A stretch of 64,000 bases of DNA from Gammaproteobacteria bacterium (lineage in GTDB: Bacteria; Pseudomonadota; Gammaproteobacteria; Nevskiales; Nevskiaceae): contig JAHZLQ010000008.1 of assembly GCA_022599775.1 (NCBI GenBank), positions 62,001 through 126,000 of the forward strand, in the 5' to 3' direction. This document shows positions 12,490 through 50,923 of this stretch, in pieces (position 1 is the first letter of the stretch; each line of letters begins with the position of its first letter). The notes beneath the pieces were generated by a model. That model made no database searches, was not told the origin of the DNA, and saw only the letters and a list, made by a program, of their open reading frames with translations. Made by a program: the position numbers and the translations under genes.

Positions 12490-12502
12490 CGGGCGGCTCC
12501 CT

Positions 12503-15134: not shown

Positions 15135-15208
15135 TGTGTGACTCCTCCTCTTTTCCAGAACGGCCGCGCGGAATTGGCGCGGCATCATTCATGCGCCGCC
15201 GCGATGCA

Positions 15209-16842: not shown

Positions 16843-16844
16843 CG

Positions 16845-17393
16845 CTAGACGGCCCCGACCGGCCGCAGCAGAGTTTCCACCGCCGGAACCGCGCCCGGAT
16901 CGGGTTCCCAGCCCTGCATCAGCAGCCAGGAGCGGTCGCGCAGCAGCTGTTCCTTGGACACTTCGAGCACTGTGGCGTCCACCGCGTCACGCACCGAGGG
17001 CTCGGATTCGGCATAGACCGCGCGCACGGTGTCACCGGTCGCACGACGCAACAGACCGACAGCCTCGACGATCTCGGAAGGCTCGGCACGTGCGCGGTCG
17101 AGCACCTCGCGGCCGCTTTCCAGCGCGGCACGCAAGGCCAGCACCGCCTGTTCGGTCTGCGTTCCGCCCTGTGCCTGCTCGCGCAGTTTCGCGGCGGCGT
17201 CGATCAGGCGCGCCAGTTCATCACAGTCGTAACGGTATTCCAGGGGCAGATGCTGGGCGATCATCGTCAGCGTGCCGATCGTCAGCTGAGCGGACTGCAT
17301 GGCCAATTGGTTGGTCTGATCCAAGGCCGGGATTACGTCTTCCATCATCGCCTTGATGATGGTTTGAATCTGGATTTGTGGACGTAGTTGCAT
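16845..17393 (-). CDS. DUF6285-like protein, partner of the adjacent phosphotransferase (LvaB-like)
   Basis: A 182-residue, mostly helical protein that I take to be DUF6285-like from its YDCDELARLI and REQAQGG stretches and its position one base after the phosphotransferase stop. In Pseudomonas putida levulinate catabolism a protein of this kind (LvaB) forms a complex with the kinase LvaA. It is longer than LvaB as I recall it. A DUF6285 domain search would settle the assignment. Confidence 0.65.
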   Translation of the reverse strand: MQLRPQIQIQTIIKAMMEDVIPALDQTNQLAMQSAQLTIGTLTMIAQHLPLEYRYDCDELARLIDAAAKLREQAQGGTQTEQAVLALRAALESGREVLDRARAEPSEIVEAVGLLRRATGDTVRAVYAESEPSVRDAVDATVLEVSKEQLLRDRSWLLMQGWEPDPGAVPAVETLLRPVGAV

Positions 17394-17394
17394 G

Positions 17395-18591
17395 TCAGGG
17401 CCCCTTTTCGATCAGATCACGCATTTCATCGAGCAGCATGTAGCCGACACCCAGCAGCCAGGCCAGCAGTACATCCTGATGAGACTTGCCGTTGCGGGCG
17501 ACGCGATAGCTGGTGCCCAAGGTCATGCCGACCATCGCGTAGGCGTTGAACACTTGGTAGTAGTGCAACGACTTGCGGTCCACGCTCAAGCCGGACGCCT
17601 GCTCGTAGGCCTCAAGAAACTGAGGCTCGGGCATCAGCCCGGACACCAGCAGGGTCTTGCCATCCTCGGCCATGGTCGCGAAGGCGCGGCTGGTGCTCCA
17701 GGCGAGGTCCTGGTGGCGGTCGCCGATGCGCGCAAGCTCCCAATCCAGCCAGGTGGTGATGCGACAGTCCGATTCGTCGAACAGGTAATTGCCGGTACGA
17801 AAATCGCCGTGCACCACCGACAGTTGCTCCACCGCCGGCGCGTGCTTGTGCAGCCACGAGGACGCCAGAGCCACCAGCGGCACCTCCTCATCGGCATCCT
17901 CTTCCCAGACACGGTCCCACCAGTTCACGGCCCAATGGGCGTTCTCGGTACCGGTTTGTGGAATATCGAAGGCACTGAGTTCGGCCTGGCGGAAATCGAA
18001 GGTATGCAGCCTTGCCATGTTTTCCACGAACTGCGGCGCCAGCTTGTTGCGCACGTCCTCGGGCATGTAGGTGCCCAGGCCGGACACGCCGCTTTTGGCG
18101 TTGGACGGCTTGGTCACGCCCTCGGCGAAGCCGTAGACGATGCCCGGATACGGCAGGTGCTCGCCGGTGTTGTCGTACCAGAACACCGGCGGCACCGGCA
18201 GCGTGCCCTTGAGCGCGTTGACGATCTGGAACTCGCGGGCGCGGCTGGTCGCGTGCAGCGCTTCGGCAAGGTCATTGCGCAGCACCATGCGCGTGGTTTC
18301 CCGCCCGACGCCGGGACGGTTCCAGTTGAGGTCGAAGCGCATCTGAAGCTTGGAGGCGCCACCGGCCAGCCAGTGCGGGTTCCTGATATCAAACGGTTCG
18401 CCGTACTGCGAGGCGATCAACGAGCGGACGCCCTCCACCAGCGTGTCCAGCGGCAGCTTGCTGTAGGCCGGCCCGGCCCGCTTTTCCAGCTTGAACGTCA
18501 ACGCCCGGTCGATTTCACGCTCCACCTTGAAGCGTTTGCGCATTTGCGCGATCCACTCGGGCGACGGCTTGTCCTTGTCGATGACCGTCAT
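17395..18591 (-). CDS. Aminoglycoside-phosphotransferase-family kinase (LvaA-like)
   Basis: A 398-residue APH/choline-kinase-fold protein. The catalytic loop VVHGDFRTGNYLFD and the metal-binding WLDWELA motif are intact. In catabolic clusters this group phosphorylates hydroxyacyl-CoA intermediates (LvaA phosphorylates 4-hydroxyvaleryl-CoA) and does not modify antibiotics. It is the second gene of the leftward operon, 31 bp after the lipocalin-like gene, and is followed directly by its likely partner and a phosphatase. No acyl-CoA dehydrogenase of the LvaC/ACAD10 type is in the window. Confidence 0.85.
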   Translation of the reverse strand: MTVIDKDKPSPEWIAQMRKRFKVEREIDRALTFKLEKRAGPAYSKLPLDTLVEGVRSLIASQYGEPFDIRNPHWLAGGASKLQMRFDLNWNRPGVGRETTRMVLRNDLAEALHATSRAREFQIVNALKGTLPVPPVFWYDNTGEHLPYPGIVYGFAEGVTKPSNAKSGVSGLGTYMPEDVRNKLAPQFVENMARLHTFDFRQAELSAFDIPQTGTENAHWAVNWWDRVWEEDADEEVPLVALASSWLHKHAPAVEQLSVVHGDFRTGNYLFDESDCRITTWLDWELARIGDRHQDLAWSTSRAFATMAEDGKTLLVSGLMPEPQFLEAYEQASGLSVDRKSLHYYQVFNAYAMVGMTLGTSYRVARNGKSHQDVLLAWLLGVGYMLLDEMRDLIEKGP

Positions 18592-18622
18592 CGAATCTCC
18601 TCCGCGTTATTGGGTTTTGTAT

Positions 18623-19627
18623 TCATGAGGTGATGTGGCCAGACGACTGCGTCCAGCGGCGCCCGTGCTGACGCGTCAGCGCCTGCAGCGAGGTGATTTC
18701 GGACGCCAGGCCGTAGCCGACGCGGCCGTCGTGCAGCGTCCAGCGGCACTGCGCGGCGTACACCAGCGAAGCCACGTAACAGACCCACGGGCCGCCGACT
18801 TCCGCCATTCCGTGCGCGTGCCACTGCTTGCCGCGCTTGTCGGTGGCAATGAACTCCACCGAATGAATGACGCTGCCGATACGGTGCGTGTAGAGCTTGA
18901 GATCGGTCAGCCCGTGGACCTCGCCATTTTCGAGGACGTAGCCGTGGGCCAGGGACTGCTGCTGGTCCACCGGCTTGCTCGGGTCCCAGTGGTTGATCCA
19001 CTTGATCGCCAGGTCCGGCCCGAAATGGGCATGCGACCAGCCCATCGTCGGTACGAAGATCTCGGCACGATTGCCCCAGCTGTGATCCATGGTCTCGACG
19101 CAGTCGATCTCGTACTCGCGCCCCTGCCACTTGAGGGTTCCCTGGAACTGACCGGTCAGATCGAAGTGACCGCCATAGCCGGAACCCATGCCGGCGCCTG
19201 CGTGCTGCTCCTCGACCGAGGCCTTGGCCATCGGGCTGTGCTCGGGGTCGTGGATATCGAAGGGCTCCATCAGCCCCTTGAAGTCGAACTTGATTTCGGT
19301 GTCGTCATAACCGCGATATTCCACGCGGTAGTCGCGAATGTTGTGCGCCTTGACGTAAAGCCCGTTCGCGGTCTCGTATTCGGACAGCCTGGGCGGGCAC
19401 GGCAGGGCCATCTGTGAATCCAGATAGAGCGTTTCGGCACGGTTGTCGACCAGCGCTCCGTACAGCGAAATGTCACAGGACTGCACGCCGACACCCCGGC
19501 GCGCCACGGTGTAGATCACCCCCATCAGCTTTTCCTTGGGGATGTAGAAGCAGAACCAGTTGGTTTCTGCATGCCGGTGGTCGGCATCCGCGGGCGTGTG
19601 GAATTCGGCGTCCTCAGGCTTGATCAA
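18623..19627 (-). CDS. AttH/CrtC lipocalin-like protein of unknown function
   Basis: A 334-residue protein rich in Trp, His and aromatic residues, with a central ETMDHSWGNR segment and a W-rich C-terminal half. The pattern is similar to the lipocalin-like AttH/CrtC (hydroxyneurosporene synthase-like, DUF7064/7065) group found beside phosphotransferases and CoA genes in steroid and terpenoid degraders. No signal peptide or membrane span is visible. It is the first gene of the operon; an AGGAG ribosome-binding site lies before the ATG. Function unknown; a hydrolase or isomerase role on hydrophobic CoA esters is only a guess. Confidence 0.6.
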   Translation of the reverse strand: MIKPEDAEFHTPADADHRHAETNWFCFYIPKEKLMGVIYTVARRGVGVQSCDISLYGALVDNRAETLYLDSQMALPCPPRLSEYETANGLYVKAHNIRDYRVEYRGYDDTEIKFDFKGLMEPFDIHDPEHSPMAKASVEEQHAGAGMGSGYGGHFDLTGQFQGTLKWQGREYEIDCVETMDHSWGNRAEIFVPTMGWSHAHFGPDLAIKWINHWDPSKPVDQQQSLAHGYVLENGEVHGLTDLKLYTHRIGSVIHSVEFIATDKRGKQWHAHGMAEVGGPWVCYVASLVYAAQCRWTLHDGRVGYGLASEITSLQALTRQHGRRWTQSSGHITS

Positions 19628-20793: not shown

Positions 20794-22764
20794 ATGACTC
20801 AAGCTACGTCGGTGGCGCAGGACGCTTCGGGCTCGCCATGGTTACCGGGCTGCGAGCCTGGCCCGGGGCGCCTCGCACGCGCCTATATCCGTTCCCAGGA
20901 TGACATTCAGGCCGTCGAAGCCGTCGCGCCGGAATCGGTCTTGCCCGGGAACACGATCTACGAGTGCATCCGCTACTCGACCGCCCAGAATCCGCAAAAG
21001 CCGGCTTTCCTGCACCTGCTTTCAGCCGATACCGGCGTTGAGCCTCGCAGCATCAGCTATGCGGAACTGCTGGACCAGGTCGAACGCAGTGCCAACCTGT
21101 TCAAGCGTCTTGCCGGCGATGAGCGCAGTTCGGTTTCGATCATTCTGCCGATGCTGCCAGAAGCGCTGATCGCGGCCTGGGGCGCGACGACGGCGGGTAT
21201 CGCCAACCCGATCAATCCGTATCTGGAAGTCGGGCAGATTGCGTCGATCATGAACGCGGCCAAGGCCACCGTGTTGGTGACGACCGTGAGTCGCTACGGC
21301 CCCGGCGCCTGGGACAAGCTGGCTGACCTGACGAGCCTGGTTCCGAGCCTGAAGAAGGTGTTGTTCGTGGACGCCAGCGACGGGGTCGATGACTTCGCCG
21401 CCGCCGTGGCCGCCTGCCCGGCCGGTCTGGAGTTCGTACCGGGAAGCGACCCTCAGGCCGAGGCCGTCTACCTGCCCACGGGTGGCACCACGGCAGCACC
21501 CAAGCTGGTGCGCCAGACCCATTTCGGGCAGTTGCTGAATGCCTGGATCACCGGCGCGATGGCCGGTTCCAGGCCGGAAGGCGTAGTCGGCCATGCCATG
21601 CCGAACTTTCATGTTGGCGGCGCGGTGATGCTGTCGCTGCGCGCGATTGTGTACGGCCAGACGGTGCTGACGCTAACCACAGACGGTTTCCGCAATACCC
21701 AGATCGTGAGCAATTTCTGGGATGTTGCCCGGCACTACCGCATGACCTCGCTGATCGCGACGCCAGCCACGGCGGCGGCGATACTCGCCACGCCCAAGGC
21801 CGATTCGGAAGGGCACTGCATCCGCAGCTTCAACTCCGGCGGCAGCACCATTCCGGTCGAGCTGCTGCGCGGCTTCCATGAACGCTTCGGGGTCTGGCTG
21901 CGCGAGGTCTGGGGCATGTCCGAAATTCACGGCGCGGTTTCCGGCCACCCCGACGACGGACGCGAGCCGGTGGCCGGTTCGGTCGGCGTCCACCTGCCCT
22001 GGCACCCGGTCAAGGCGATCGAGGTCGACGAAAACAATCGCTTCGTCCGTGATTGCGCGCCCGGCGAACGCGGCGTGCTGGCGATCGGCGGACCCGGTGT
22101 GGTACCCGGCTATGTGGATTCGCGGCTGGATGGCGACTTCTTCGTCAAGGACACGCCGGACGGCCAGCGCTGGGCCAACACCGGCGATCTCGGCATGGTC
22201 GACGAAAACGGTCGTATCTGGATGTTCGGCCGCGCCAAGGACGTCATCGTTCGTGGCGGGCACAACCTCGACCCGAAGATGATCGAAGAAGTTCTGGTCT
22301 GCCATCCCTCCGTGCAGATCGCCGCAGCGATCGGCCGCCCGGACCCCGCCAAGGGCGAAATGCCCATCGCCTACGTGCAACTCAAGGAAGGCCATCAGGC
22401 CGAAGCCGGTGAACTGCTGGAACTGTGCAGGAAGAAGGTTCAGGAACGTGCCGCGATACCGGTGGAAATCCACCTCGTGGACCGCATTCCGATGACAGCG
22501 GTCGGCAAGATCAACAAACCGGCATTACGTGTCGACACCATGCGGCGCGTGGCCTCCGAGGTCGCCCTGCGCGTGGTCTGCGAGGACGCCCGCTGCGAGG
22601 TGGAGACCGATGAAACCGGGCCGCGGCCACGGGTGATTCTGCGCCTGTCGGGCTGCCGCGTCGAATCGCAGGCGCTGGAGTCCAGACTCAAAGATGCATT
22701 CCGGACCTACGAGTTCCTGACCGTTTTCGAGTTTCAGCCGGCCGATGCCAGCGTCGCATCCTGA
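20794..22764 (+). CDS. AMP-forming acyl-CoA synthetase with C-terminal extension
   Basis: A 656-residue member of the ANL superfamily, which activates a carboxylic acid to its CoA thioester through an acyl-adenylate. Motifs: the phosphate-binding loop LPTGGTTAAPK near residue 228, WGMSE near 371, GDLGMVDENGR near 466 and the catalytic Lys in TAVGKINKPAL near 571. After the usual end there are about 75 further residues (from MRRVASEV) with no recognised domain. An AGGAGGAG ribosome-binding site precedes the ATG. It is probably controlled through the tandem GTATGG sites upstream. Confidence 0.9.
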   Translation: MTQATSVAQDASGSPWLPGCEPGPGRLARAYIRSQDDIQAVEAVAPESVLPGNTIYECIRYSTAQNPQKPAFLHLLSADTGVEPRSISYAELLDQVERSANLFKRLAGDERSSVSIILPMLPEALIAAWGATTAGIANPINPYLEVGQIASIMNAAKATVLVTTVSRYGPGAWDKLADLTSLVPSLKKVLFVDASDGVDDFAAAVAACPAGLEFVPGSDPQAEAVYLPTGGTTAAPKLVRQTHFGQLLNAWITGAMAGSRPEGVVGHAMPNFHVGGAVMLSLRAIVYGQTVLTLTTDGFRNTQIVSNFWDVARHYRMTSLIATPATAAAILATPKADSEGHCIRSFNSGGSTIPVELLRGFHERFGVWLREVWGMSEIHGAVSGHPDDGREPVAGSVGVHLPWHPVKAIEVDENNRFVRDCAPGERGVLAIGGPGVVPGYVDSRLDGDFFVKDTPDGQRWANTGDLGMVDENGRIWMFGRAKDVIVRGGHNLDPKMIEEVLVCHPSVQIAAAIGRPDPAKGEMPIAYVQLKEGHQAEAGELLELCRKKVQERAAIPVEIHLVDRIPMTAVGKINKPALRVDTMRRVASEVALRVVCEDARCEVETDETGPRPRVILRLSGCRVESQALESRLKDAFRTYEFLTVFEFQPADASVAS

Positions 22765-22837: not shown

Positions 22838-24271
22838 TCAGCCGGTCAGATAGATCGACTGAATATGCTGATAGGCCGCCAGCGACTCCGGCCCCAGCTC
22901 ACGCCCGATACCGCTGGACTTGACCCCGCCGAACGGCGCGGCAATATCGATCACATAACCATTGATGCCGATCGTGCCGGTTTCGACGCGACGCGCCAGC
23001 GCGATGGCGCGCTCGCGGTCGGTCGACCAGACCGTGCCGCCGAGACCGAAATCCGAATCGTTGGCGATCTTCACCGCCTCGTCCTCGTCGCTGTAGGGGA
23101 TGATCCCCAGCACCGGACCGAAGATTTCCTCGCGCGCGATGGTGTCCGAGTTTTCCACGTCGGCGAAAACGGTCGGCTCGACAAACCAGCCGCGGTCCCG
23201 CCCACGCCCGCCGCCGGCCACCAGCTTGGCCTCCGACTTGCCCTTGGCGATGTAGCCTTCGACGCGTTCACGATGGACGGCGGACGCCAGCGGCCCGACC
23301 TGGGTATTCGCGTCCAGCGAATCACCTAGCACCAGCGACGATGCCATGTTGGCAACCGCCTCCACCACCTCGCCATAACGGCTGCGCGGCGCGAGAATGC
23401 GCGTGCACGCTGCGCAAGTCTGGCCGTTGTTCGCCAGCGAGGCGAAGTTCATGCCGGGAATCACCACATCGAGATCGGCATCTTCGAGAATGATGGCGGC
23501 GGACTTGCCGCCGAGTTCCAGACTGACCGGCCGCAACAGCCGACCGCAGGCCTCGCCGATCGCGCGGCCGGCGTTGGTCGAACCGGTGAACGCGACCTTG
23601 TCCACCTTGGGATGGGATACCAAATAGGCACCGACACCGCGATCGCCCGGCACCCAGTTCAATACACCCGGCGGAATCCCCGCCTCTTCGGCCGCCTCGG
23701 CCAGGATGTAGCTGTCCAGCACCGTGCCCGGCGAGGGCTTGAGCACCATCGTGCAGCCGGTCGCCAAGGCTGGCGCGATCTTCATCATCGACAGCGTGAC
23801 CGGGTAGTTCCAGGGCACGATGGCGCCGACCACGCCCGCCGGCTTGCGCCGCACCAGGGTGTCGAAGCCCAGCGGCGAAGGCCTGCGCTCCTCGGTCTGC
23901 AGGGCGTTGGCCAAGTCGGCGTAGTAGCGCAGCATGCCGAGCACGAAGTCGCCTTCGAAGGCCTCGGCGAGGCTGATCGGCATGCCGTTCTGCATGCTGA
24001 TGGCACGCGCCAGCGGCGCCTTGCGTTTTTCCAGGGCATCGGCGAAACGAGCCAGCGCCGCACCGCGTTCGGCGGGCGCGGCCGTGGCCCAGCCGGAACG
24101 ATCGAACGCATGGCGCGCAGCATTCACGGCCCGATCGATATCGGCTTCAGCGGCCTCGGGAACGCTGCCGATGGTCTCCTCGTTGCTCGCGTTGATCACC
24201 GTGATGCGCTTGGATGTGGAGGGCTTGACCCACTCGCCTCCAATGAAGAATGCCTGCTTGTCCATCGACAT
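22838..24271 (-). CDS. NAD(P)-dependent aldehyde dehydrogenase
   Basis: A 477-residue aldehyde dehydrogenase with the catalytic Glu of LELGGKSAA near residue 250 and the nucleophilic Cys in NNGQTCAA near residue 285. The start at 24271 (MSMDKQAFF) has AGAGGAG 7 nt upstream, whereas the open frame continues far 5' without a start signal. It is divergent from the SDR at 24389 and shares the GTATGG promoter element with it. With the alcohol dehydrogenase at 29588 it could turn an alcohol into the acid that the ligases activate. Confidence 0.92.
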   Translation of the reverse strand: MSMDKQAFFIGGEWVKPSTSKRITVINASNEETIGSVPEAAEADIDRAVNAARHAFDRSGWATAAPAERGAALARFADALEKRKAPLARAISMQNGMPISLAEAFEGDFVLGMLRYYADLANALQTEERRPSPLGFDTLVRRKPAGVVGAIVPWNYPVTLSMMKIAPALATGCTMVLKPSPGTVLDSYILAEAAEEAGIPPGVLNWVPGDRGVGAYLVSHPKVDKVAFTGSTNAGRAIGEACGRLLRPVSLELGGKSAAIILEDADLDVVIPGMNFASLANNGQTCAACTRILAPRSRYGEVVEAVANMASSLVLGDSLDANTQVGPLASAVHRERVEGYIAKGKSEAKLVAGGGRGRDRGWFVEPTVFADVENSDTIAREEIFGPVLGIIPYSDEDEAVKIANDSDFGLGGTVWSTDRERAIALARRVETGTIGINGYVIDIAAPFGGVKSSGIGRELGPESLAAYQHIQSIYLTG

Positions 24272-24337
24272 GAACGATCTCCTCTCGTTGTATTGTTGAC
24301 GCTCGCCGTCCGGGCGGCCGTCCGCGCCTGCAAAACT

Positions 24338-24354
24338 AGTATGGCACAATATTA
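24338..24354 (+). promoter_or_regulatory. Putative operator, AGTATGGCACAATATTA element
   Basis: In the 117-bp gap between the divergent aldehyde dehydrogenase and SDR genes. The 18-bp stretch starting at 24338 matches the complementary strand of the site at 30839 in 16 of 18 positions. A TATTAT hexamer at 24349 could serve as a -10 element for the SDR gene; no good -35 is visible, which would suit an activated promoter. Confidence 0.5.
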
Positions 24355-24388
24355 TTTCATTACCGATGCGCAGTGGCGCCGAGACTCC

Positions 24389-25186
24389 ATGACCGATCGC
24401 ACGAAAATCACCGTCCATTCCTTTGCCGACAGCACCGTCCTGATCACCGGAGGAACGTCCGGCGTGGGACTCGCCAGCGCCAAGCTGTTCGCAAGCCGCG
24501 GCGTGCGCAAGATCGCGCTGGTCGGCCGCAATGCGGAGCGCGGCGAGCAGGCCTGCCGTGCGGTACGGGAAATCTCACCGCAGGCCGAGGTGACGTTTGT
24601 CGCCGCCGACGCCAACCAGCTGGATCAGGCCGTGAGCGCCGCCGGGCAGGTCCGCGAACGCTTCGGCAGCGTGGACATTCTGGTGAACTCCACCATCGGC
24701 CTGTATACCCCGAACCCGCTGCAGGACATCCCGCTGGAGGACATCCAGCCGATCATTCTGCAGACGGTCCTGGCGCCGATGCTGATGAGCCGCATCGTGC
24801 TGCCGTGGATGCGCGAGCGCGGCGGCGGCTGCATCATCAACATGGCCTCGGACGCCGCCAAGGTACCGACACCGGGCGAGACCATCCTCGGCGCGGCGAT
24901 GTCGGCGATCGTGCTGTTCTCGCGCACCCTGTCGATGGAAGCCAAGCGCTTCGGCGTACGCGTGAACGTCCTCACGCCCTCGCTGATCACGGGCACGCCG
25001 ACCGCCGAGCGCGTGCAGAAGGAAGGCTTCAGCGCCAAGCTGTTCGCCACCGTCGCCAAGCTGGCCGATCTCGGCGTGGTCGAACCGCATGAAGTGGCCG
25101 AACTGATCGTGTTCCTGGCGAGCCCGCAGGCCTCCAAGATCACCGGCCAGACGGTCAGCATCAACGGCGGCATCTCGGCGGGCTGA
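24389..25186 (+). CDS. SDR-fold protein lacking the catalytic Tyr and Lys
   Basis: A 265-residue SDR-fold protein. The cofactor loop TGGTSGVG (residues 20-27) and the catalytic Ser154 (NMAS) are kept, but the YxxxK positions read L167 and M171, and NNAG is replaced by NSTIG. The C-terminal end (GQTVSINGGISAG) is normal. The DNA is in frame and shows no sign of decay, so the losses look like real changes of function. It may bind cofactor or act as a partner, or use another mechanism. It is divergent from the aldehyde dehydrogenase and convergent with tetR. Confidence 0.85.
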   Translation: MTDRTKITVHSFADSTVLITGGTSGVGLASAKLFASRGVRKIALVGRNAERGEQACRAVREISPQAEVTFVAADANQLDQAVSAAGQVRERFGSVDILVNSTIGLYTPNPLQDIPLEDIQPIILQTVLAPMLMSRIVLPWMRERGGGCIINMASDAAKVPTPGETILGAAMSAIVLFSRTLSMEAKRFGVRVNVLTPSLITGTPTAERVQKEGFSAKLFATVAKLADLGVVEPHEVAELIVFLASPQASKITGQTVSINGGISAG

Positions 25187-25210: not shown

Positions 25211-25918
25211 CTAGGACGCAGCGCGGTCCGGTTGCTCCAGCCGCAGCAGCGCCGCCTCGATCCGCCGGGCGGCGGCCTCCAGTCGGGCCGTCGCCGCTTC
25301 GGCATCGCCCACGGCAACGCGCAGCGCCATGCCGCGATAGAGAATCTTGGCAATCTGCTCGGCTACGTCGTCCACCGAAAAGTCGCCCTCCCCCCTGAGA
25401 AACGCCCAGGTGCGGTGCTCGATGGCGCCGTGCAGCATGTCGCGCAGCATCGCCGGCGAGATGTCGTCGTAGAACTCGCCGCTGGCGATCGCCTCCCGGC
25501 AGACTTCCATGACCTCGTGGGTGAAACGACGGTTCAGTTCGAAGAACGGCGTCGCCCGGTAGTTGGGGTCCGGGCGCAGTTCCATCAACATGAAACGACT
25601 CAGTACCGGCTCGCGCTTGATGATGCTCAGGGTGCGCCACGCCAGATATTGCAGCTTGTTCTGCACACCTTGAATCGAGTCGAGCTGAGAGTCCGATGTC
25701 AGCTGCTCGCTGAACCAGACTTCGGCGACCTTGATCAGCAGATCCCGCTTGTTGTGGAAATAGCGGTAGATCGTGCCTTCGACGACGCCGGCACGCTTGG
25801 CGATATCGGCGATCAGGGTCTTCTCGTAGCCCTTCTCCGCAATCACCTCCCGTGCCGCGGCCATGATGTGGGCGGTGCGTCCATCGGAGGTCTGGCGGGT
25901 GGTCGTTTTACGGGGCAT
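25211..25918 (-). CDS. TetR-family transcriptional repressor
   Basis: A TetR protein of about 235 residues: the N-terminal HTH (AHIMAAAREVIAEKGYEKTLIADIAKRAGVVEGTIYRYFHNKRDLL) is complete, followed by a helical ligand domain. The start used gives MPRKTTTRQ; an upstream ATG at 25954 is in frame but has no ribosome-binding site. It is divergent from the benzoyl-CoA-reductase-like operon across an AT-rich gap carrying two identical-architecture inverted repeats, its probable operators, so it likely represses that operon and itself. Confidence 0.9.
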   Translation of the reverse strand: MPRKTTTRQTSDGRTAHIMAAAREVIAEKGYEKTLIADIAKRAGVVEGTIYRYFHNKRDLLIKVAEVWFSEQLTSDSQLDSIQGVQNKLQYLAWRTLSIIKREPVLSRFMLMELRPDPNYRATPFFELNRRFTHEVMEVCREAIASGEFYDDISPAMLRDMLHGAIEHRTWAFLRGEGDFSVDDVAEQIAKILYRGMALRVAVGDAEAATARLEAAARRIEAALLRLEQPDRAAS

Positions 25919-25956
25919 ACGCAAATCTACCTGCAAGACCACTGGTCGGTCCATTC

Positions 25957-25971
25957 ATGAATTCACTTCAT
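25957..25971. promoter_or_regulatory. TetR operator candidate 1 (ATGAA-N5-TTCAT)
   Basis: A perfect inverted repeat, arms ATGAA and TTCAT with a 5-bp spacer, placed just before tetR. A second copy with the same arms and spacer lies at 26058-26072, before the divergent operon. A weak leftward promoter (TTGATA at 25975-25980 on the complementary strand) would be covered by it. Confidence 0.6.
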
Positions 25972-26048
25972 TACTATCAATAAAACATTAGATAATTGTT
26001 TTTATTATATTTTTTGTATTTATACCTCATCTATAACACAATCTCTTA

Positions 26049-26077
26049 TTGACTTTAATGAACTGACTTCATAGTGT
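26049..26077 (+). promoter_or_regulatory. Promoter with embedded TetR operator candidate 2
   Basis: TTGACT at 26049-26054 and TAGTGT at 26072-26077 are 17 bp apart and could be the -35 and -10 of the reductase-like operon. The inverted repeat ATGAA-CTGAC-TTCAT (26058-26072) fills the space between them, the classic place for a repressor to block RNA polymerase. The surrounding 150 bp are very AT-rich compared with the rest of the window. Confidence 0.55.
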
Positions 26078-26109
26078 GGTCGGCAACGCTTCGAGGAGGA
26101 GTCCACCGC

Positions 26110-27282
26110 GTGAACTCAAAAGAGATTTTTGCCGAGCTGGAATACGCAGCCGAGCATCCACTGGAAAGCTCCAAGGCCTGGAAGGAGGCGCACGGCACCC
26201 CCGTCGTCGGCTCGTTCCCGATGCACTTTCCCGGTGAGATGGCGCACGCCGCCGGCGCACTGCCGGTGATCCTGCAGGAGAACCACGACCCGATCACGGT
26301 CGGTCACGGGATGATCTTCCCGTTCTACTGCGGCTATACGCGCAGCGTGGTCGATCAGGCCTGCAAGGGCGACTACGACTTCCTCGACGCGATCATGTTC
26401 GGCGATCACTGCGTGCAGGTGCTCGGCGCTGCGGACGTAGTGCGCAGCCGCCTGCCGAATACGCGCGTGCACTTCTATCAGCTGATCTCGTCGATGAGCG
26501 ATCCCTGGTCACTCGGCCGGGCGCGCGAAACCTTCCTCAACCTCAAGGAAGGGCTCGAAGAGATGATCGGCCATCCGATCGAGGATGAAGCGATCCGCGA
26601 CAGCATTCGCCTGTTCAACAAGAACCGGAAGATGCTGCGCCAGCTCTACGAGATGCGCCGCGCCGGCAAGGTCCGCCTCACGGCCAAGCAGATGCAGCTT
26701 GCCGTCAAGTCCAGCATGGTCATGGACAAGGCCAAGCACAACGAAACCCTGGAGGCGCTGATCGCCGCGCTGGAAGCCGAAAGCTCCACCGCGCAGAAGG
26801 GCGTCCGCGTCTACCTGTCGGGCCATTTCTGCCAGGCGCCGAAGGTCGAACTGCTCGACATGATCGAGGACTGTGGCGCGGTGGTCGTCGACGACGACCT
26901 CTACCACGGCCAGCGTTTCATCGCGACCGATGTGCGCGAGGACGGCGACCCGCTGGATGCGCTCGCCGAATGGTATCTGGCGCGCAATCTCAAGGTACCG
27001 TGCCCGACCCGTGTGGATCAGAACGCCGATTGGGAGAACTACCTGATCGATGCCATGGACCGATCCAATGCCGACGGCATGATCGTGCTGATGGCCAAGT
27101 TCTGCGAACCGCACATGTTCTATTACCCGGAAATCAAGGAAGCCTTCGAGCGCCGCGGTGTGCCGCATCTGCTGATCGAGACCGAGCACGAATTGACCGC
27201 GCTGGAAGGATTGAAAACCCGCGTCGAAACGTTTTTGGAAGTCACCAAGCGCCAGACCCGAGCCAGGAGTGCCGCCGCATGA
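26110..27282 (+). CDS. Benzoyl-CoA reductase/2-hydroxyacyl-CoA dehydratase family subunit (BcrC/HgdB-like)
   Basis: A 390-residue subunit of the radical enzyme family that reduces aromatic acyl-CoA rings or dehydrates 2-hydroxyacyl-CoA. Typical features are the N-terminal FPMHFPGEMAHAAGALP stretch, conserved cysteines (C74, C101 and the C of the late KFCEPHMFYYPE motif) that can bind a [4Fe-4S] cluster, and the C-terminal GVPHLLIETE segment. The GTG at 26110 follows GGAGGAG by 8 nt; an upstream GTG at 26074 has no such signal. It overlaps the next gene by ATGA. Whether it is a reductase or a dehydratase cannot be decided from sequence alone. Confidence 0.88.
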   Translation: MNSKEIFAELEYAAEHPLESSKAWKEAHGTPVVGSFPMHFPGEMAHAAGALPVILQENHDPITVGHGMIFPFYCGYTRSVVDQACKGDYDFLDAIMFGDHCVQVLGAADVVRSRLPNTRVHFYQLISSMSDPWSLGRARETFLNLKEGLEEMIGHPIEDEAIRDSIRLFNKNRKMLRQLYEMRRAGKVRLTAKQMQLAVKSSMVMDKAKHNETLEALIAALEAESSTAQKGVRVYLSGHFCQAPKVELLDMIEDCGAVVVDDDLYHGQRFIATDVREDGDPLDALAEWYLARNLKVPCPTRVDQNADWENYLIDAMDRSNADGMIVLMAKFCEPHMFYYPEIKEAFERRGVPHLLIETEHELTALEGLKTRVETFLEVTKRQTRARSAAA

Positions 27283-28622
27283 GCCAGACCATCGCATTGC
27301 CGAAGAAAGCCAACCGTCTGAGGACGGCCTCGCTGAACAACAAACTCGTCAACGACTACTGGACCGAAGTCTTCGAGGCGCCAAAGGTCGGCCGCAAGGT
27401 CTGCTGGTACGAAGGCGTGGCGATCAACCCGCTGATGCAGGCCGCAGATGTGGCCTGGGTACACGGCGAGGCCTGGTCCGCCCTGCTGGCGGCCCGCAAC
27501 AACGAGGAACCGGCACAGCAGGCCTCGGAAAATCGCGGCTATCTCAAGGATCTGTGCTCTTACGCGCGTACTCATATCGGCTGCGGCGTGATGGCGCAGA
27601 ACAAGGGCGAGGCCTCCGGCGCCAGCTTCTCCGACGCGCTGGGCGCCAATGCCCTGGCCGACAATGTGCCGGCGCCCGACATGTTCATCAGCGCCTACCC
27701 CTATTGCAGCACCGGGCAGCAGTGGGACGAGATGCTGTATCGCCTGTTCAAGAAGAAAGTGCCGATCTTCAATATCTCGGTGCCGTGGGTCTGGGGCAAC
27801 AAGCCGGATTCGGTCTACCTCGGCGGCAGCGAGTTCCGCGAAGCCGTGGAATACATGAAGCGCCAGCTGCGCGAATGCGTGAAGTTCATCGAGGCGCAGA
27901 CCGGCAAGCCCTACGACTGGGACAAGCTGCACGAAATCATGCATTACACCAAGCAGGCCGGCCAGCTGCGCATGGAGGCGATGGAGATGTGCGCCACCAA
28001 GCCCGCGCCGGCCAGCTTCTTCGACTGGACCACCAGCCTGGCGCCGGTCAACTTCGTGCCGGGCGGGCCGGCGATCGTCGATTATTTCGAGAAGGTCAAG
28101 CTCGAGATCGCCGAGCGCATCGCCAACGGCGAAGGCACGGTGCCGAAGGAACGCTATCGCCTGTTCTGGGACGGCATCATGAACTGGAACAAGATCGGCT
28201 GGCTGGCCAATAAGTTCGCCAGCTACGACGCCGCCATGGTGGCCGGCCGCTATACCCACATGGGCTTCTGGCACGAGCACGAGTGCATCGACGCCAACGA
28301 TCCACTCGAAGGCATGGCCATCAACTACCTGGTCTGCCCGATCAACCTGTCCGCGCCGCTGATGATCGAGCAGATCATCAAGCTCTGTAAGTTCTACGAG
28401 ATCGACGGTGTGGTGCTGCATGCCGCACGCACCTGCCGCGCCTTCTCCAACCCGCAGTACATGATCGCCGAAGCCGTCGCCCGCCGGCTCAACCTGCCGG
28501 TGGCGATGATCGAAGGCGACATGGTAGACGAATCCTTCTACAAGGACGAAGTCGTCAGCAGCCGCATCGAAGCCATGCTTGAAGCGATTGAAAGTCGCAA
28601 GCGAGCGGGCATCGCGGCCTGA
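27279..28622 (+). CDS. Benzoyl-CoA reductase/2-hydroxyacyl-CoA dehydratase family subunit (BcrB/HgdA-like)
   Basis: A 447-residue partner subunit, about the length of BcrB/BzdO. Conserved cysteines occur in THIGCGVMA, AYPYCSTGQQW and HAARTCRAF, and the C-terminal EGDMVDESFY...SRIEAMLEAI matches the family's end. It starts at the ATG overlapping the stop of the first subunit; the open frame extends further 5' but only as a shadow of that gene. The two chains would form the catalytic heterodimer that receives low-potential electrons from the ATPase encoded next. Confidence 0.88.
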   Translation: MSQTIALPKKANRLRTASLNNKLVNDYWTEVFEAPKVGRKVCWYEGVAINPLMQAADVAWVHGEAWSALLAARNNEEPAQQASENRGYLKDLCSYARTHIGCGVMAQNKGEASGASFSDALGANALADNVPAPDMFISAYPYCSTGQQWDEMLYRLFKKKVPIFNISVPWVWGNKPDSVYLGGSEFREAVEYMKRQLRECVKFIEAQTGKPYDWDKLHEIMHYTKQAGQLRMEAMEMCATKPAPASFFDWTTSLAPVNFVPGGPAIVDYFEKVKLEIAERIANGEGTVPKERYRLFWDGIMNWNKIGWLANKFASYDAAMVAGRYTHMGFWHEHECIDANDPLEGMAINYLVCPINLSAPLMIEQIIKLCKFYEIDGVVLHAARTCRAFSNPQYMIAEAVARRLNLPVAMIEGDMVDESFYKDEVVSSRIEAMLEAIESRKRAGIAA

Positions 28623-28669
28623 TGCAAGGACACGAACGGGCCGTCCAAGAGGCAGCCAAGGAGTCACAG

Positions 28670-29581
28670 ATGAAAGCCTACGTGATGGGTATCGATTTCG
28701 GTTCCACGACCGCCAAGACGGTGATTCTGGACCGCAAGGGCAAGATGGTGGCCTGGAGCGTGGGTCAGAAGGGCTCGGTCAGCGATGCCGGCGTGCGCGA
28801 ATCCATGGCCAATGCTTTCGAGAAGGCCGGGATCACCCAGGCCGATATCGCCCGTACCGTCAGCACCGGCTACGGTCGGCGCATGATCGACGTGGCCGAC
28901 CAGTCCTACACCGAGATCACCTGCCATGCGCGCGGCGCCGTCCACATGTGCCCTGAAGCCCGTCTGGTCATCGATATCGGCGGGCAGGACAGCAAGGTGA
29001 TTGCCGTGGACGCGAACGGCCTGGTGTCGCAGTTCGCGATGAACGACCGCTGCGCCGCCGGCACCGGCAAGTTTCTGGAAACGCTGGCGCGCGCGGTGGA
29101 AGTGCCGATCGAGGAGATGGGACCGCTGGCGCTGACCGCCAACGAAGCCCTGAAGATCAGCAGCATGTGCGCAACCTTCGCGGAGACCGAGGTCATCGGG
29201 CTGCTCGCCGAAGGCAAGCAGAAGCCGGAGGTTCTCGGAGCGGTGCATGCCTCGATCGCACAACGCACCATCGGCCTGGTGGCACGGGTCGGCAAGCGCT
29301 CACCGGTCATCATGACGGGCGGTGTCGCCAAGAACTCCGCGGCCGTGCATCACATCGCCAAGGCCTTGGAAGTCGAGCTGATCATCCCCGACTTCCCGCA
29401 GATCGCCGGTGCACTCGGCGCCGCGCTGTTCGCACTCGACGAGGTCACCGGCCAAGTGGACGCGCCGAAAACCGATGAAGACGACCTGGTGGATGAAGAG
29501 GCCATGAGCAATTCGCGCGGCTGCGCCACCAAGCCCTGCCAGAACGGCCCCAAGGAGCAGCCGCTCCTCGGGCCGTTCTGA
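28670..29581 (+). CDS. ATP-dependent activator of the acyl-CoA reductase/dehydratase (BadF/HgdC family)
   Basis: A 303-residue actin-fold ATPase (BadF/BadG/BcrA/BcrD/HgdC family) that uses ATP hydrolysis to pump an electron into the catalytic subunits. DFGSTTAK (residues 9-16), DIGGQDSK and MTGGVAKN are the nucleotide-binding motifs; Cys128 (NDRCAAGTG) and Cys167 (SSMCATF) should bind the dimer-bridging [4Fe-4S] cluster and nearly coincide with HgdC of Acidaminococcus. The C-terminal tail has two further cysteines. AAGGAG lies 6 nt before the ATG at 28670. Only one activator is encoded, as in dehydratases; benzoyl-CoA reductases usually have two different ones. Confidence 0.9.
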   Translation: MKAYVMGIDFGSTTAKTVILDRKGKMVAWSVGQKGSVSDAGVRESMANAFEKAGITQADIARTVSTGYGRRMIDVADQSYTEITCHARGAVHMCPEARLVIDIGGQDSKVIAVDANGLVSQFAMNDRCAAGTGKFLETLARAVEVPIEEMGPLALTANEALKISSMCATFAETEVIGLLAEGKQKPEVLGAVHASIAQRTIGLVARVGKRSPVIMTGGVAKNSAAVHHIAKALEVELIIPDFPQIAGALGAALFALDEVTGQVDAPKTDEDDLVDEEAMSNSRGCATKPCQNGPKEQPLLGPF

Positions 29582-29587: not shown

Positions 29588-30703
29588 TCAGAAGATCAGT
29601 ACCGGTTTGATCACCTCGCCGGACTCGGACGAATGAACCGCCTCATTGATCTGCTCGAACGGGAACTTCCGGATCAGCTTGTCGAACGGGAACTTCCCGG
29701 CCTGATACCAGCCCACCATGCGCGGGATGAATTCCTGCGGGTCGGAATCGCCTTCGACGACGTACTTCACGCCCACGCCGCGCACCAGCATGCTCATCAT
29801 GTTGGCCGGCACTGTGGCCTCGGCCGGCGGCACTCCCAGCAACGCCAATTCGCCGCGCGGCAACATCGTCTCCGCGGCGACGGCAACGACATCCGGGATA
29901 CCCGTGGTGTCGAGCGCGTAGTTCACGCCGCCACCGCTGAGTTCCTTGATCGTGGCGAGCACGTCTGCGGTTTCCTTGGGATTGATTACGTGCGTAGCGC
30001 CAAGCTCCAGCGCCAGTTCGCGACGCCCGGCGTTCGGCTCGACGATGATGACCATGCCAGCCCCGACCGCCTTGGCACCCAGCATCGCGCTGAGTCCGAC
30101 GGCACCGCCGCCGAACACGGCCAGCGACTCACCGGATCGAATGCCGAGCGCGTTGACGGCCGCCCCGGCTCCGGTCTGAATGCCGCAGCCCAGCGGCCCC
30201 ATGATTTCCAGCGGCAGGGACTTGTCCACCGGCACGGTGTTGACTTCCCGTGCCAGCGCATAGGTGGAAAACGACGACTGGCAGAAGAACACCGCGTTGA
30301 GCGGCTCGCCGTCGGCCGTGATTACGGTGGACGAACCGTCGGACTTGCGCGTGCCGGCCACATTGCGCGGGTAGAAGTCGTAACAGTACGCCGGTTGATG
30401 GTCGTGGCAATTGCGACATTCACCGCAGGAGTCGAAGCTCAGCACGACATGGTCGCCCGGTTTGACTCGCGTGACGTCGGAGCCGACCGACTCGACGACG
30501 CCGGAGCCTTCGTGCCCGAGCACGATCGGCATCGGAACCGGGAAACCGTCACGGCAGGCGATGTCCGTGTGGCAGATGCCGGTTCCCACCAGGCGGATCA
30601 ACACCTCGTCCTCACGAGGCGCGGACACTTCCACGTCCTCGATCGTCCAGGGCGCCCCGAGGGAACGCATCACCGCCGCACGTGCTTTGATTCGGCCTTC
30701 CAT
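29588..30703 (-). CDS. Zinc-dependent aryl/benzyl-alcohol dehydrogenase-like (MDR family)
   Basis: A 371-residue medium-chain dehydrogenase. Catalytic zinc ligands C44 and H64 (GHEGSG), structural zinc cysteines at 93, 96, 99 and 107, and a Rossmann FGGGAVGLSA loop are present. Length and motifs match XylB-type benzyl-alcohol and related allylic-alcohol dehydrogenases. GGAGG lies 6 nt before the ATG at 30703. It is divergent from the AlkB-like monooxygenase, across a region holding a perfect 20-bp palindromic operator, so the two may be coregulated and act in series: hydroxylation, then alcohol oxidation. Confidence 0.9.
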   Translation of the reverse strand: MEGRIKARAAVMRSLGAPWTIEDVEVSAPREDEVLIRLVGTGICHTDIACRDGFPVPMPIVLGHEGSGVVESVGSDVTRVKPGDHVVLSFDSCGECRNCHDHQPAYCYDFYPRNVAGTRKSDGSSTVITADGEPLNAVFFCQSSFSTYALAREVNTVPVDKSLPLEIMGPLGCGIQTGAGAAVNALGIRSGESLAVFGGGAVGLSAMLGAKAVGAGMVIIVEPNAGRRELALELGATHVINPKETADVLATIKELSGGGVNYALDTTGIPDVVAVAAETMLPRGELALLGVPPAEATVPANMMSMLVRGVGVKYVVEGDSDPQEFIPRMVGWYQAGKFPFDKLIRKFPFEQINEAVHSSESGEVIKPVLIF

Positions 30704-30838
30704 CACATTCCTCCATGTTGGCTCCGGCCACCCGGCCGGAGTGGTTTGAATTCTTTATTTTTCACCGCGATGCAGCCGATAACCGGCGGCTTCGCGGCAG
30801 CGTCAGGGGATGCGACATTCCGTCGCCACCCTCGACAT

Positions 30839-30858: not shown

Positions 30859-30978
30859 CATGGAACGAAACGCGTCGCCGGCGATTCGGTCCCGACTGAT
30901 ACGGTACGGAAACCATCGCATGCGAAGTTCAGTGCGCAAATTGTCGGGGCCAGGACCCCGGTGAGGAGATCTGTAATC

Positions 30979-32100
30979 ATGTCTGACTATCTCAAATACT
31001 ATGCTGCCGGGTTGCTGCTGGCAGCGGGCTTTGCCGGCTACATGCTGGGCGGCAACTGGGTCTGGCTGGGGTTCGCGACTTTCCCGATCGTCGTTGGCCT
31101 GGACGTACTCCTGCCGCGCGACTTCAGCGAACGAAACATGAACTCGCCCTTCTGGGCGGCCGTGCCGGTCTGGATCGGCGCTTTGGGTCCGATCGTGCTG
31201 TTTCTTGCCTTTGCCTGGCGCATGTCGGTCGAGCAGCTCAGCGCCATGCAACTGTTCGGCGGCACCATGAGTGCGGCCTGGCTGGCACTGGTTCCCGGCA
31301 TCGCGGCCCAGCACGAGATGTTTCATGCCCGCGGACCGCTGACTCGCACGATCGGCCGTTACGCGCAGTTCACGCTGTTCGACGGCATGCGCGACATCGA
31401 ACACGTGATCTACCATCACATCGACGTGTCGACGCCGGCCGACCTGAGCACGGCGCCGCGCGGCACCTCGATCTATGCGTTCACGCCCAAGGCGGTCTGG
31501 GGCACGATCAGCTATGCGCTCAAGGCCGAAAGCGGTGCGCTACGCAAGCGCGGTCTCAGCGGCTGGAACTGGCGCCATCGCGTCTGGAAGATTCTGGCCA
31601 TTCAGATCGTGTTCCAGAGCATCGTGTTCGCCTTGGCGGGTTGGGGTGGTGTGGCCTGCGTATTGATCGCGATGTTCATCGCCAAGGCCTGGACCGAATC
31701 GTTCAGCTATTTCCAGCATTACGGTCAGGTCCGTGTGCCCGGCACGCCGATCGGTCGGCGCCATGTCTGGAACCACCTCGGCGCGGTGACCCGCTTGGTC
31801 GGTTTCGAGCTGACCAATCACGCGGATCATCACCAGAACTCGTACCAGCCCTATTACAAGCTGGTACCGCACAAGGACGCGGTGGAAATGCCCAGCGTCT
31901 TCGTCTGCTTCCTGGCCGCGCTGATCCCGCCGGTGTGGGAACAATTCATCATCAAACCGGCCCTCAGGCGCTGGGACATGGAGTTTGCGACGCCCGGCGA
32001 ACGCAAGCTTGCGCGTGAGCAGAACCTGGCCGCGGGTTGGGAAGACTGGTTCGACAACCAGAATTCCTGGCCGGCCTCCTCGGCGACCATGGGCATCTGA
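30979..32100 (+). CDS. AlkB/XylM-like membrane diiron monooxygenase
   Basis: A 373-residue membrane hydroxylase of the fatty-acid-desaturase/alkane-monooxygenase superfamily. The histidine boxes that bind the diiron centre are HEMFH (112-116), EHVIYHH (141-147), QHYG (246-249) and NHADHH (280-285), placed among about six hydrophobic segments. Such enzymes hydroxylate terminal methyl groups of alkanes, terpenes or methylarenes and need a rubredoxin or ferredoxin, not seen nearby. The ATG at 30979 has GAGGAG upstream; the longer open frame 5' of it runs through the promoter region. Confidence 0.88.
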   Translation: MSDYLKYYAAGLLLAAGFAGYMLGGNWVWLGFATFPIVVGLDVLLPRDFSERNMNSPFWAAVPVWIGALGPIVLFLAFAWRMSVEQLSAMQLFGGTMSAAWLALVPGIAAQHEMFHARGPLTRTIGRYAQFTLFDGMRDIEHVIYHHIDVSTPADLSTAPRGTSIYAFTPKAVWGTISYALKAESGALRKRGLSGWNWRHRVWKILAIQIVFQSIVFALAGWGGVACVLIAMFIAKAWTESFSYFQHYGQVRVPGTPIGRRHVWNHLGAVTRLVGFELTNHADHHQNSYQPYYKLVPHKDAVEMPSVFVCFLAALIPPVWEQFIIKPALRRWDMEFATPGERKLAREQNLAAGWEDWFDNQNSWPASSATMGI

Positions 32101-33037: not shown

Positions 33038-33072
33038 GCGGACTCGCCGACCCGTCATCGAGGAGCGCAAGG

Positions 33073-34656
33073 ATGTGGCTGCACGCAGAAGTCGACACCC
33101 TCGGAGACATCCCGCGGTACTACGCCCGCCATTGTCCTGAACGCACAGCCTTGATCGATGGCGCCGGCAAGCTCAGCTTCGGCGAGCTGGATGCGATTTC
33201 GGACCGTATTGCGGCGGCACTCGCAGCACGCCTGGACACGGTCAAGCATGTCGGCTTTCTCGGCAAGAATTCCTCGCGCTATTTTCAGGTGCTGTTCGGC
33301 GCCGCGAAAGCGGGCTGGGCCGTCACGCCGCTGAACTGGCGCCTGCCGCCGGCCGAACTGGCACCGATCATCGACGATGCGCAGTGCTCGCTGGTATGGG
33401 TGGATCACGATTTTGCCGCCGTCTTCGGCGAAACCGCATCCCGCTGCCGGCAGACCTGCGAAATGGTGGCCTTCGATTCATCCAGTGCAGAAGACGCCGC
33501 CTTGCTGTCCTGGTTGGCGTCGAGCCCCTCACGGGAACCGGAGCCACGAATCCACCCGGACGACACCGTCGCGCTGATCTACACCTCCGGCACCACCGGC
33601 TGCCCCAAGGGCGTGCAGCTGACCCACCGCACGTTTGCCGGAATCCGCCTGTGCGAACACCTGGAACCGGCGCTGGATTTCCAGGACGGCGACGTCATGC
33701 TGACCGTGATGCCGGTGTTCCACCTCGTCGGCACCGGCCTGTCGGTGCAGGCGCTGTACAACGGCGCCGCGGTCTCGCTACTGCCGGCCCTGGAGCCGGA
33801 GAAACTGCTGGAGCTGATCGAGCGCGACCGTCCCAGCATCTGCGCGCTGGTGCCCACGGCGATTCAGATGATGCTCGATCATCCCAAAGCGAAAACCACC
33901 GATTTTTCCTCGCTGCGGCTGGTGATGTACGCCGGCTCTCCGATCAGCGCCGCCCTGCTGAAGCGGGCCATGGCGGAAATGAAATGCAAGCTGATGCAGT
34001 TCTACGGCTCCACCGAGGCGTCGGGCGCCCTGACCCTGTTGCGCCCCGAGCAGCATGATCTGCACAACGAGGAAAAGCTGAAGTCCTGCGGGACGCCGCT
34101 GCCGCTGATCGAATTTCGCGTCGTCGACGACCAGGGCCAGGAAGTTCCGGACGGGCAGCGCGGCGAATTCATGGTCCGCGGCCCCAACATGTTTCGGGGT
34201 TACTGGAACGCTCCCGAAGCCAGCCGCGCGGTCCTCAAGGACGGCTGGTACCGCACGGGCGACGCGGGATATCGCGACAAGGACGGTTTGCTGTACATCG
34301 TCGACCGGGTCAAGGACATGATCGTCACCGGCGGGGAGAACGTGTATTCAGCCGAAGTCGAACAGGTTCTGTACAAGCACCCGGCGGTCAAGACCTGCGC
34401 GGTGGTCGGCCTGCCGGACGAACGCTGGGGCGAACGCATCACCGCCGTGATCATTCCCGCTTCGGGCGAGCCACCGGACGCCGCGGCGATCATCGCGCAT
34501 TGCCGCGAACACATCGCCGGCTACAAGGTGCCCAAGGAGATACGCTTCGTCGACAGCCTGCCGGTCACACCGACCGGAAAGGTGCAGAAGCGCATGCTTC
34601 GCGAGCAGCTATCGGCAACCGCAGTGTCGGTCATGCCGTCCTCCCTGCACCGCTGA
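33073..34656 (+). CDS. AMP-forming acyl-CoA synthetase
   Basis: A 527-residue ANL-superfamily ligase. The adenylate-forming loop YTSGTTGCPKG near residue 171, YGSTEASG near 313, the TGDAGYRDKDG hinge near 395 and the catalytic Lys of TPTGKVQKR near 508 are intact. Start ATG at 33073 is 7 nt after GGAG; the frame continues upstream only as a shadow of the membrane-protein gene. It should activate a medium-length or cyclic/aromatic acid, perhaps the acid formed by the monooxygenase/dehydrogenase steps encoded upstream. Confidence 0.9.
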   Translation: MWLHAEVDTLGDIPRYYARHCPERTALIDGAGKLSFGELDAISDRIAAALAARLDTVKHVGFLGKNSSRYFQVLFGAAKAGWAVTPLNWRLPPAELAPIIDDAQCSLVWVDHDFAAVFGETASRCRQTCEMVAFDSSSAEDAALLSWLASSPSREPEPRIHPDDTVALIYTSGTTGCPKGVQLTHRTFAGIRLCEHLEPALDFQDGDVMLTVMPVFHLVGTGLSVQALYNGAAVSLLPALEPEKLLELIERDRPSICALVPTAIQMMLDHPKAKTTDFSSLRLVMYAGSPISAALLKRAMAEMKCKLMQFYGSTEASGALTLLRPEQHDLHNEEKLKSCGTPLPLIEFRVVDDQGQEVPDGQRGEFMVRGPNMFRGYWNAPEASRAVLKDGWYRTGDAGYRDKDGLLYIVDRVKDMIVTGGENVYSAEVEQVLYKHPAVKTCAVVGLPDERWGERITAVIIPASGEPPDAAAIIAHCREHIAGYKVPKEIRFVDSLPVTPTGKVQKRMLREQLSATAVSVMPSSLHR

Positions 34657-49372: not shown

Positions 49373-49450
49373 CCGTGCAAGGATGCCACAGCCCTCCCGG
49401 CAGTCGAAGCCGCCGCGAGCCTTCAGAGCCTGTGAACGGTGTCGGCCGCT

Positions 49451-50833: not shown

Positions 50834-50884
50834 CGGCGTTCCTGATTGCGGCCGCAAGCCTGGGCCGACCTCGCGCCCAGCGCA

Positions 50885-50898: not shown

Positions 50899-50923
50899 GC
50901 GCAGCCGCATCACGGGCTTGCGA

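Follow-up and report, generated by a model that had tools for sequence, protein, structure and literature searches.

An aerobe-associated variant of the benzoyl-CoA reductase/2-hydroxyacyl-CoA dehydratase family beside methyl hydroxylase genes and its possible role in ring catabolism

The described enzymes of the benzoyl-CoA reductase/2-hydroxyacyl-CoA dehydratase (BCR/HAD) family come from organisms that work without oxygen, and they are inactivated by air. What, then, does an operon of this family do among oxygenase genes? The question is raised by a stretch of 64,000 nucleotides from a Nevskiaceae genome (Gammaproteobacteria bacterium, GCA_022599775.1, contig JAHZLQ010000008.1, positions 62,001 to 126,000 of the forward strand; hereafter the window), in which the original prediction placed two catalytic subunits (A and B) and one HgdC-like activator ATPase in a compact operon. 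The operon is as described: the frames are intact, subunits A and B score 260 and 197 bits against Pfam HGD-D (cut-off 28.4), and the activator scores 251 bits against NCBIfam CoA_E_activ (cut-off 125). With subunits of PF06050 and an activator of the ASKHA type (PF01869), the proteins belong to the BCR/HAD superfamily. A GAGGAGG Shine-Dalgarno-like run precedes the GTG at 26110 with which subunit A starts, an ATGA overlap joins the end of A to the start of B (27279), and GC content at third codon positions (GC3) is of coding type in all three genes. The genome (4.27 Mb, 99% complete, 0.3% contamination) has a single A/B pair and a single activator gene, and the activator should therefore act as a homodimer. 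We would read the operon as an ATP-dependent radical acyl-CoA enzyme that acts on a ring-carboxyl-CoA derived from methyl oxidation and feeds a perillyl-CoA-type ring cleavage, a reading that in our judgement has an even chance of being right.

To which branch of the family do these proteins belong? A, B and the activator fell far below the cut-offs of all equivalog models (BcrB/C, BzdN/O, HadB/C, double-cubane protein, BcrA/D and BzdQ), the Had models giving 165 and 183 bits against cut-offs of 750 and 700. In maximum-likelihood trees of both subunits, the window-type sequences form one group apart from the references, outside the HadBC clade and outside the Bcr/Bzd/Mbd clades, with a Shimodaira-Hasegawa-like approximate likelihood ratio test (SH-aLRT) value of 100 in each tree. 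The references, either solved or model-defined, were HadBC, Mbd, Bzd, Bcr, double-cubane proteins, a Fusobacterium pair and coriobacterial-looking pairs from a survey of Actinomycetota; FldBC and Acidaminococcus HgdAB were left out, and the trees are quick searches with SH-aLRT support only. Since similarity guided the choice of clade members, the trees speak to separation from the references and not to the completeness of the clade or its absence from anaerobes.

A scan of 84,980 species for clade motifs returned about 100 relatives. The hosts among the 76 loci listed include Rhodococcus, Nocardia, Gordonia, Nocardioides, Pseudonocardia, Amycolatopsis, Paracoccus, Mesorhizobium, Novosphingobium, Sphingopyxis, Zhongshania, Solimonas, Hydrocarboniphaga, Aromatoleum and others, genera which we take to be mostly aerobes with some denitrifiers, none of them known to us as strictly anaerobic. 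Thus A and B lie outside the reference clades and are not confined to strict anaerobes, and the original prediction stands on the two points by which it had offered to be judged. Its suggestion of microaerobic use is neither supported nor contradicted: many host genera are known to be strictly aerobic, but a low-oxygen respiration cluster lies 20 kb downstream (48221-61031: FixL-like PAS histidine kinase, radical-SAM protein, cbb3-type oxidase genes (COX1, FixO, FixG-like), P-type ATPase and catalase). The operon is best filed as an aerobe-associated variant of the BCR/HAD family, a member of neither Had nor Bcr. We found no report of an aerobic member of this family in the open-access literature, most subscription journals lying outside that search.

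To ask what chemistry the operon might support, the cluster sites were compared using the residue numbering of the BzdNO structure paper (PMC11971306). Subunit B retains the three cluster cysteines (93, 143 and 386) and Glu64, while the position of BzdO His131 is a glycine inside the invariant motif CSTGQQW. At the six double-cubane positions, all of which are cysteine in BzdN and the double-cubane proteins and three of which are cysteine in BcrC and MbdN, subunit A reads Pro-Cys-Cys-Tyr-Cys-Cys, the HadC pattern, with Pro and Tyr at the positions of BzdN C36 and C263. A double-cubane cluster protein (DCCP), a homodimer with six cysteines per subunit, is ruled out by the heterodimeric operon and the four cysteines. 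In AlphaFold models (predicted local distance difference test, pLDDT, 83 each), subunit B is closest to HadB (template modelling (TM) scores 0.80/0.89), ahead of MbdO and BzdO, and the activator is closest to HadI, the MbdQ-type chain 9gba_D and HgdC. The predicted bridging residues of the activator, Cys128 and Cys167, are present and invariant among its relatives.

A three-Cys catalytic cluster paired with a HadC-type Cys set in the partner subunit, and a single activator gene with a presumed homodimeric product, are dehydratase traits present here. Those of a class I benzoyl-CoA reductase are absent: the equivalog cut-offs are not reached, the proteins lie outside the Bcr/Bzd/Mbd clade, and there are neither two activators nor a Bzd six-Cys site. 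In its sequence and predicted folds, the A/B-plus-activator machine resembles a dehydratase in parts. The earlier view that a dehydratase-like activator is here mixed with reductase-like subunits is not supported: subunit length is non-diagnostic and both the Cys pattern of A and the nearest fold of B are dehydratase-like. A further locus (L096; G251:C33:203000-213996) encodes a Bcr/Mbd-like pair with two activators, possibly another unassigned reductase, yet it has the HadC-type four-Cys pattern and falls below the bcr cut-off. Because this pair shares P-C-C-x-C-C, the four-Cys pattern alone fixes no reaction, and sequence does not separate ring reduction from dehydration.

The likeness to characterised enzymes is partial on both sides. 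With HadBC and HadI, the Clostridioides difficile (R)-2-hydroxyisocaproyl-CoA dehydratase system (PDB 3o3m, 4eht), the operon shares the fold, the three-Cys [4Fe-4S] site with a Glu in subunit B, the four-Cys pattern in subunit A and a single activator, 42% identical to HadI. HadB and subunit B are ~25% identical, and HadB has CNQVIKW where the clade has CSTGQQW; an insertion after the first Cys region, a Cys-pair tail on the activator, aerobic hosts and ring-catabolism neighbours are the clade's own. BcrCBAD, BzdNOPQ and MbdONPQ are of the same superfamily, and a context of CoA ligase, SDR, BadI-like hydrolase and cyclohexanecarboxyl-CoA-dehydrogenase-like genes recalls the bad/ali clusters. 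Unlike these class I reductases, the operon has one activator, lacks the double-cubane Cys set and falls in a separate clade.

The tail extends ~58 residues beyond the conserved ATPase core of clade activators, and its cysteines are spaced C-x2-C in Actinomycetota and C-x3-C or C-x4-C in most Pseudomonadota. The pair is present in 71 of 72 clade activators (70 by script, that of L079 being read from the printed tail) and in none of 29 reference activators; at the level of sequence, the tail with its Cys pair is a new mark of the clade. It is predicted at low confidence and is therefore probably flexible. That it serves in oxygen tolerance, metal binding or electron entry is conjecture.

Two A/B operons, arranged in tandem or a short distance apart, occur in some genomes (L037 / L038 / L046 / L047 / L012) and suggest substrate-specific paralogues. 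Frames of ~730-780 amino acids (aa) in an Aromatoleum diolicum contig and Azoarcus pAZKH (L100, L103) match activator and HGD-D models together and may be activator-subunit fusions. A distant single 2-hydroxyacyl-CoA-dehydratase-like gene on a plasmid of Novosphingobium sp. ES2-1 (L011, 11833-13134) has a TRAP transporter, CoA transferase and TonB as neighbours, and no activator was found in the fetched stretch.

What substrate might the neighbours indicate? They were counted in 79 clade loci over a radius of 10 kb, extended to as much as 20 kb for a few plasmid loci. A CoA ligase or CoA transferase accompanies the operon in 67 loci, a PaaX-type regulator in 34 and a TetR regulator in 29. CYP108-type P450s occur in 7 loci, XylM in 6, and a BadI-like ring hydrolase in 10, directly adjoining A in Nocardioides. 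In the window's own subclade (Nevskiaceae-type loci), the operon is accompanied by TetR, a XylM-type hydroxylase, a benzyl-alcohol-type alcohol dehydrogenase, an aldehyde dehydrogenase, SDR and ligase; all six other loci carry XylM, and five of them an alcohol and/or aldehyde dehydrogenase in the fetched stretch. The predicted setting, an oxygenase-linked catabolic island, is supported. The P450, Rieske and AlkB-like genes originally reported near the operon all exist, but the last (30883..32100) is of the XylM type, XylM relatives scoring far higher than AlkB alkane hydroxylase, and conservation does not extend to the P450 and Rieske genes: relatives of these two, and of the window's GlcD and indolepyruvate:ferredoxin oxidoreductase (IOR) genes, occur in 0 of the 79 loci at the chosen thresholds. 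The XylM-type protein is 50% identical to proteins of Sphingopyxis macrogoltabida and Novosphingobium resinovorum, and the alcohol dehydrogenase scores 370 bits to benzyl alcohol dehydrogenase 1f8f versus 246 to the liver alcohol dehydrogenase group. In Rhodococcus, Nocardia, Nocardioides and Pseudonocardia a CYP108-type P450 replaces XylM, with alcohol and aldehyde dehydrogenases alongside; these actinomycetotal P450s score 681 bits to P450tol and 464 to P450terp. CYP108N12 hydroxylates the methyl groups of p-cymene, limonene and p-xylene (PMC11279926; PMC11889516).

Table 1 Features of the window at and around the operon
Feature	Position	Strand	Remarks
P450	8291-9508		present in window
Rieske oxygenase	13758-15188		present in window
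Acyl-CoA synthetase (PRK07529-like)	20794..22764	+	conserved
Aldehyde dehydrogenase	22838..24418	-	nearest NCBIfam StyD, below cut-off; conserved, including Rhodococcus loci
SDR dehydrogenase	24389..25186	+	most constant partner, 64/79 clade loci
TetR-type regulator	25211..25954	-	divergent from operon; conserved
Intergenic, AT-rich, between TetR gene and operon	25955..26109		presumed promoter/operator
Subunit A (HadC/BzdN-like)	26110..27282	+	390 aa; GTG start; invariant Cys74, Cys101, Cys298, Cys332
Subunit B (HadB/BzdO-like, catalytic [4Fe-4S] side)	27279..28622	+	447 aa; Cys93, Cys143, Cys386, Glu64; clade motif CSTGQQW
Activator ATPase (HgdC/HadI-like)	28670..29581	+	303 aa; Cys128/Cys167; C-terminal tail with Cys pair (CATKPC)
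Zn alcohol dehydrogenase, benzyl-alcohol-dehydrogenase type	29588..30706	-	1f8f, 370 bits
XylM-type membrane methyl hydroxylase	30883..32100	+	~42% to plasmid XylM
Membrane protein without family, 265 aa	32240..33037	+	conserved in window's subclade
Second AMP-forming acyl-CoA ligase	33061..34656	+	57% to Hydrocarboniphaga locus

Ring-cleavage genes stand on the same contig, ~10-15 kb before window base 1 (C8:47322-52275), in the order MaoC, MaoC, enoyl-CoA hydratase, BadI-like hydrolase and BadH-like SDR, followed by a XylA-type reductase. The first five match the mrcH-G-F-E-D order of the Castellaniella monoterpene island (PMC4109377), the assignment having been made by gene order through Azoarcus genes listed there as Mrc relatives, not through the Castellaniella sequences. 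The BadI-like (MrcE-like) and BadH-like (MrcD-like) proteins are 85% and 81% identical to their counterparts in Azoarcus KH32C. By gene order, these counterparts are the proteins for which 88% and 85% identity to MrcE and MrcD, respectively, is listed (PMC4109377). With a XylM-type protein in the window and a XylA-type reductase upstream of it, the parts of a XylMA-type hydroxylase are present, and the XylA-type partner adjoining mrcD ties both pathway halves together. Related arrangements recur: in Azoarcus KH32C the A-B-activator genes lie ~27 kb from BadI-like and BadH-like genes on the same plasmid, mrcFGH-like genes and a CoA transferase are separated from the operon by a few kb in Solimonas aquatica, and one plasmid of S. 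macrogoltabida carries A/B, XylM, a XylA-type reductase, alcohol and aldehyde dehydrogenases and a BadI-like gene.

In Castellaniella defragrans a limonene-derived acid enters mrc (PMC4109377). Its ctm/geo/mrc island shares with the present locus the mrcHGFED order, a BadI-like MrcE, alcohol/aldehyde dehydrogenases, and CoA transferase, thiolase and transporter genes; it starts with an oxygen-independent limonene dehydrogenase where the present locus has XylM, and it lists no acyl-CoA reductase/dehydratase (PMC4109377). The XylMA and CYP108 upper pathways likewise share their hydroxylase parts, a benzyl-alcohol-type dehydrogenase and an aldehyde dehydrogenase with the locus, but the described pathways feed ring dioxygenases and not an ATP-dependent radical enzyme.

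On the minus strand of the window, 16063-19627 encodes tyrosine-phosphatase-like, 182-aa, APH-type phosphotransferase and DUF7064 proteins; by annotation, a similar tyrosine phosphatase and phosphotransferase set lies near the S. macrogoltabida XylM genes (L153), and a tyrosine phosphatase is also found in the Castellaniella island and the Azoarcus plasmid. A limonene-epoxide-hydrolase-like (LEH/SnoaL) protein (12100-12591, minus strand), 65% identical to one in another genome (G003, L098), fits the terpene theme.

In the route that we propose, a p-menthane-type or alkylarene-type ring hydrocarbon with a methyl group (p-cymene, xylene, cyclic monoterpenes) would be hydroxylated to an alcohol by the XylM/XylA-type hydroxylase or CYP108, oxidised to the aldehyde and the acid by the alcohol and aldehyde dehydrogenases, and converted to the ring-carboxyl-CoA by the acyl-CoA ligase. 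The homodimeric [4Fe-4S] activator would use ATP to push electrons into the A/B heterodimer, where the subunit B [4Fe-4S] cluster, with one open site, would reduce the thioester to a ketyl-type radical, and the product would be passed with the SDR to MrcF/D/E (perillyl-CoA hydratase, dehydrogenase and BadI-like hydrolase). The low-potential donor may be reduced ferredoxin, possibly from the IOR-like gene (2269-5799, minus strand), a candidate without synteny support whose 1176-aa product (1541 bits) is the sole copy in the genome. For the A/B step, reduction of an alkylbenzoyl-CoA-type ring to cyclohexene/cyclohexadiene carboxyl-CoA is ranked first, because the acid from limonene, a cyclohexene carboxylate from the outset, can enter mrc without A/B as in Castellaniella, whereas that from cymene or xylene is aromatic and could not; taken alone, this step falls somewhat short of an even chance. 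It is less likely than not, although worth stating, that aerobes dearomatise alkylbenzoyl-CoA by an oxygen-adapted, single-activator BCR-like enzyme, with the Cys-pair tail protective or electron-relaying, and thereby link an oxygenase-started upper pathway to a reductive ring pathway of anaerobic style in the same cell.

Several points weigh against the proposed route. Subunit A has the dehydratase Cys pattern and not the BzdN six-Cys double-cubane set, the single activator gene contrasts with the two of the known class I reductases, and subunit B is closest to HadB in sequence and fold. Oxygenase routes for aromatic acids exist in aerobes, where reduction is not obviously needed. Many clade loci, with Liv-type transporters and CaiB, have no oxygenase, so that substrates would differ across the clade, and the oxygen habits of the hosts were read from genus names. 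The first three points lead to a real contender, albeit well below an even chance, namely a true 2-hydroxyacyl-CoA dehydratase. Here the ring carbon next to the thioester would be hydroxylated, as in 1-hydroxycyclohexane-carboxyl-CoA from a p-menthane with an oxygenated C1, and water would be lost by ketyl-radical chemistry with catalytic ATP, giving a cyclohex-1-ene-carboxyl-CoA accepted by MrcF. The HadC-like P-C-C-x-C-C pattern, the single activator and the HadB/HadI-type best folds favour this, as does the general resemblance of SDR, CoA transferase/ligase, activator and A/B to Had/Fld gene sets. However, hydroxylases of the XylM and CYP108 types attack benzylic/allylic methyls and would yield no 2-hydroxy acid, the neighbouring CaiB does not come close to a HadA/FldA model (its best NCBIfam match, mesaconate CoA-transferase, is far below cut-off), and the Bcr-like pair with two activators at L096 also shows P-C-C-x-C-C, so the pattern is no proof.

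The loci of Mesorhizobium, Paracoccus and Rhizobiales, where CaiB and a branched-chain-type ABC transporter accompany the operon and an oxygenase is lacking, would fit an operon that acts on a different ring acid (e.g., imported plant acids) and is a mere passenger beside the XylM genes. We regard this as improbable, given XylM in every other locus of the subclade, mostly with its dehydrogenases, and the CYP108 genes that in another phylum stand there with the same alcohol and aldehyde dehydrogenase types. That the operon is a non-functional relic or contamination from an anaerobe, as the oxygen-sensitive characterised relatives might suggest, is scarcely credible: the invariant cysteines are all present, the frames are intact with coding-type GC3, the same operon occurs in many aerobe genera with conserved XylM synteny, and the genome is nearly complete and almost free of contamination.

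If the proposed route is correct, low-potential radical chemistry would operate in respiring aerobes (Rhodococcus, Nocardia, Pseudonocardia, Solimonas, Novosphingobium and others), partly tied to oxygenases, and the catabolism of alkylarenes and monoterpenes would gain a new branch. The clade would offer a natural model of cluster survival in oxygen, with the activator tail as a testable handle, and candidate air-tolerant biocatalysts for ring reduction or dehydration.

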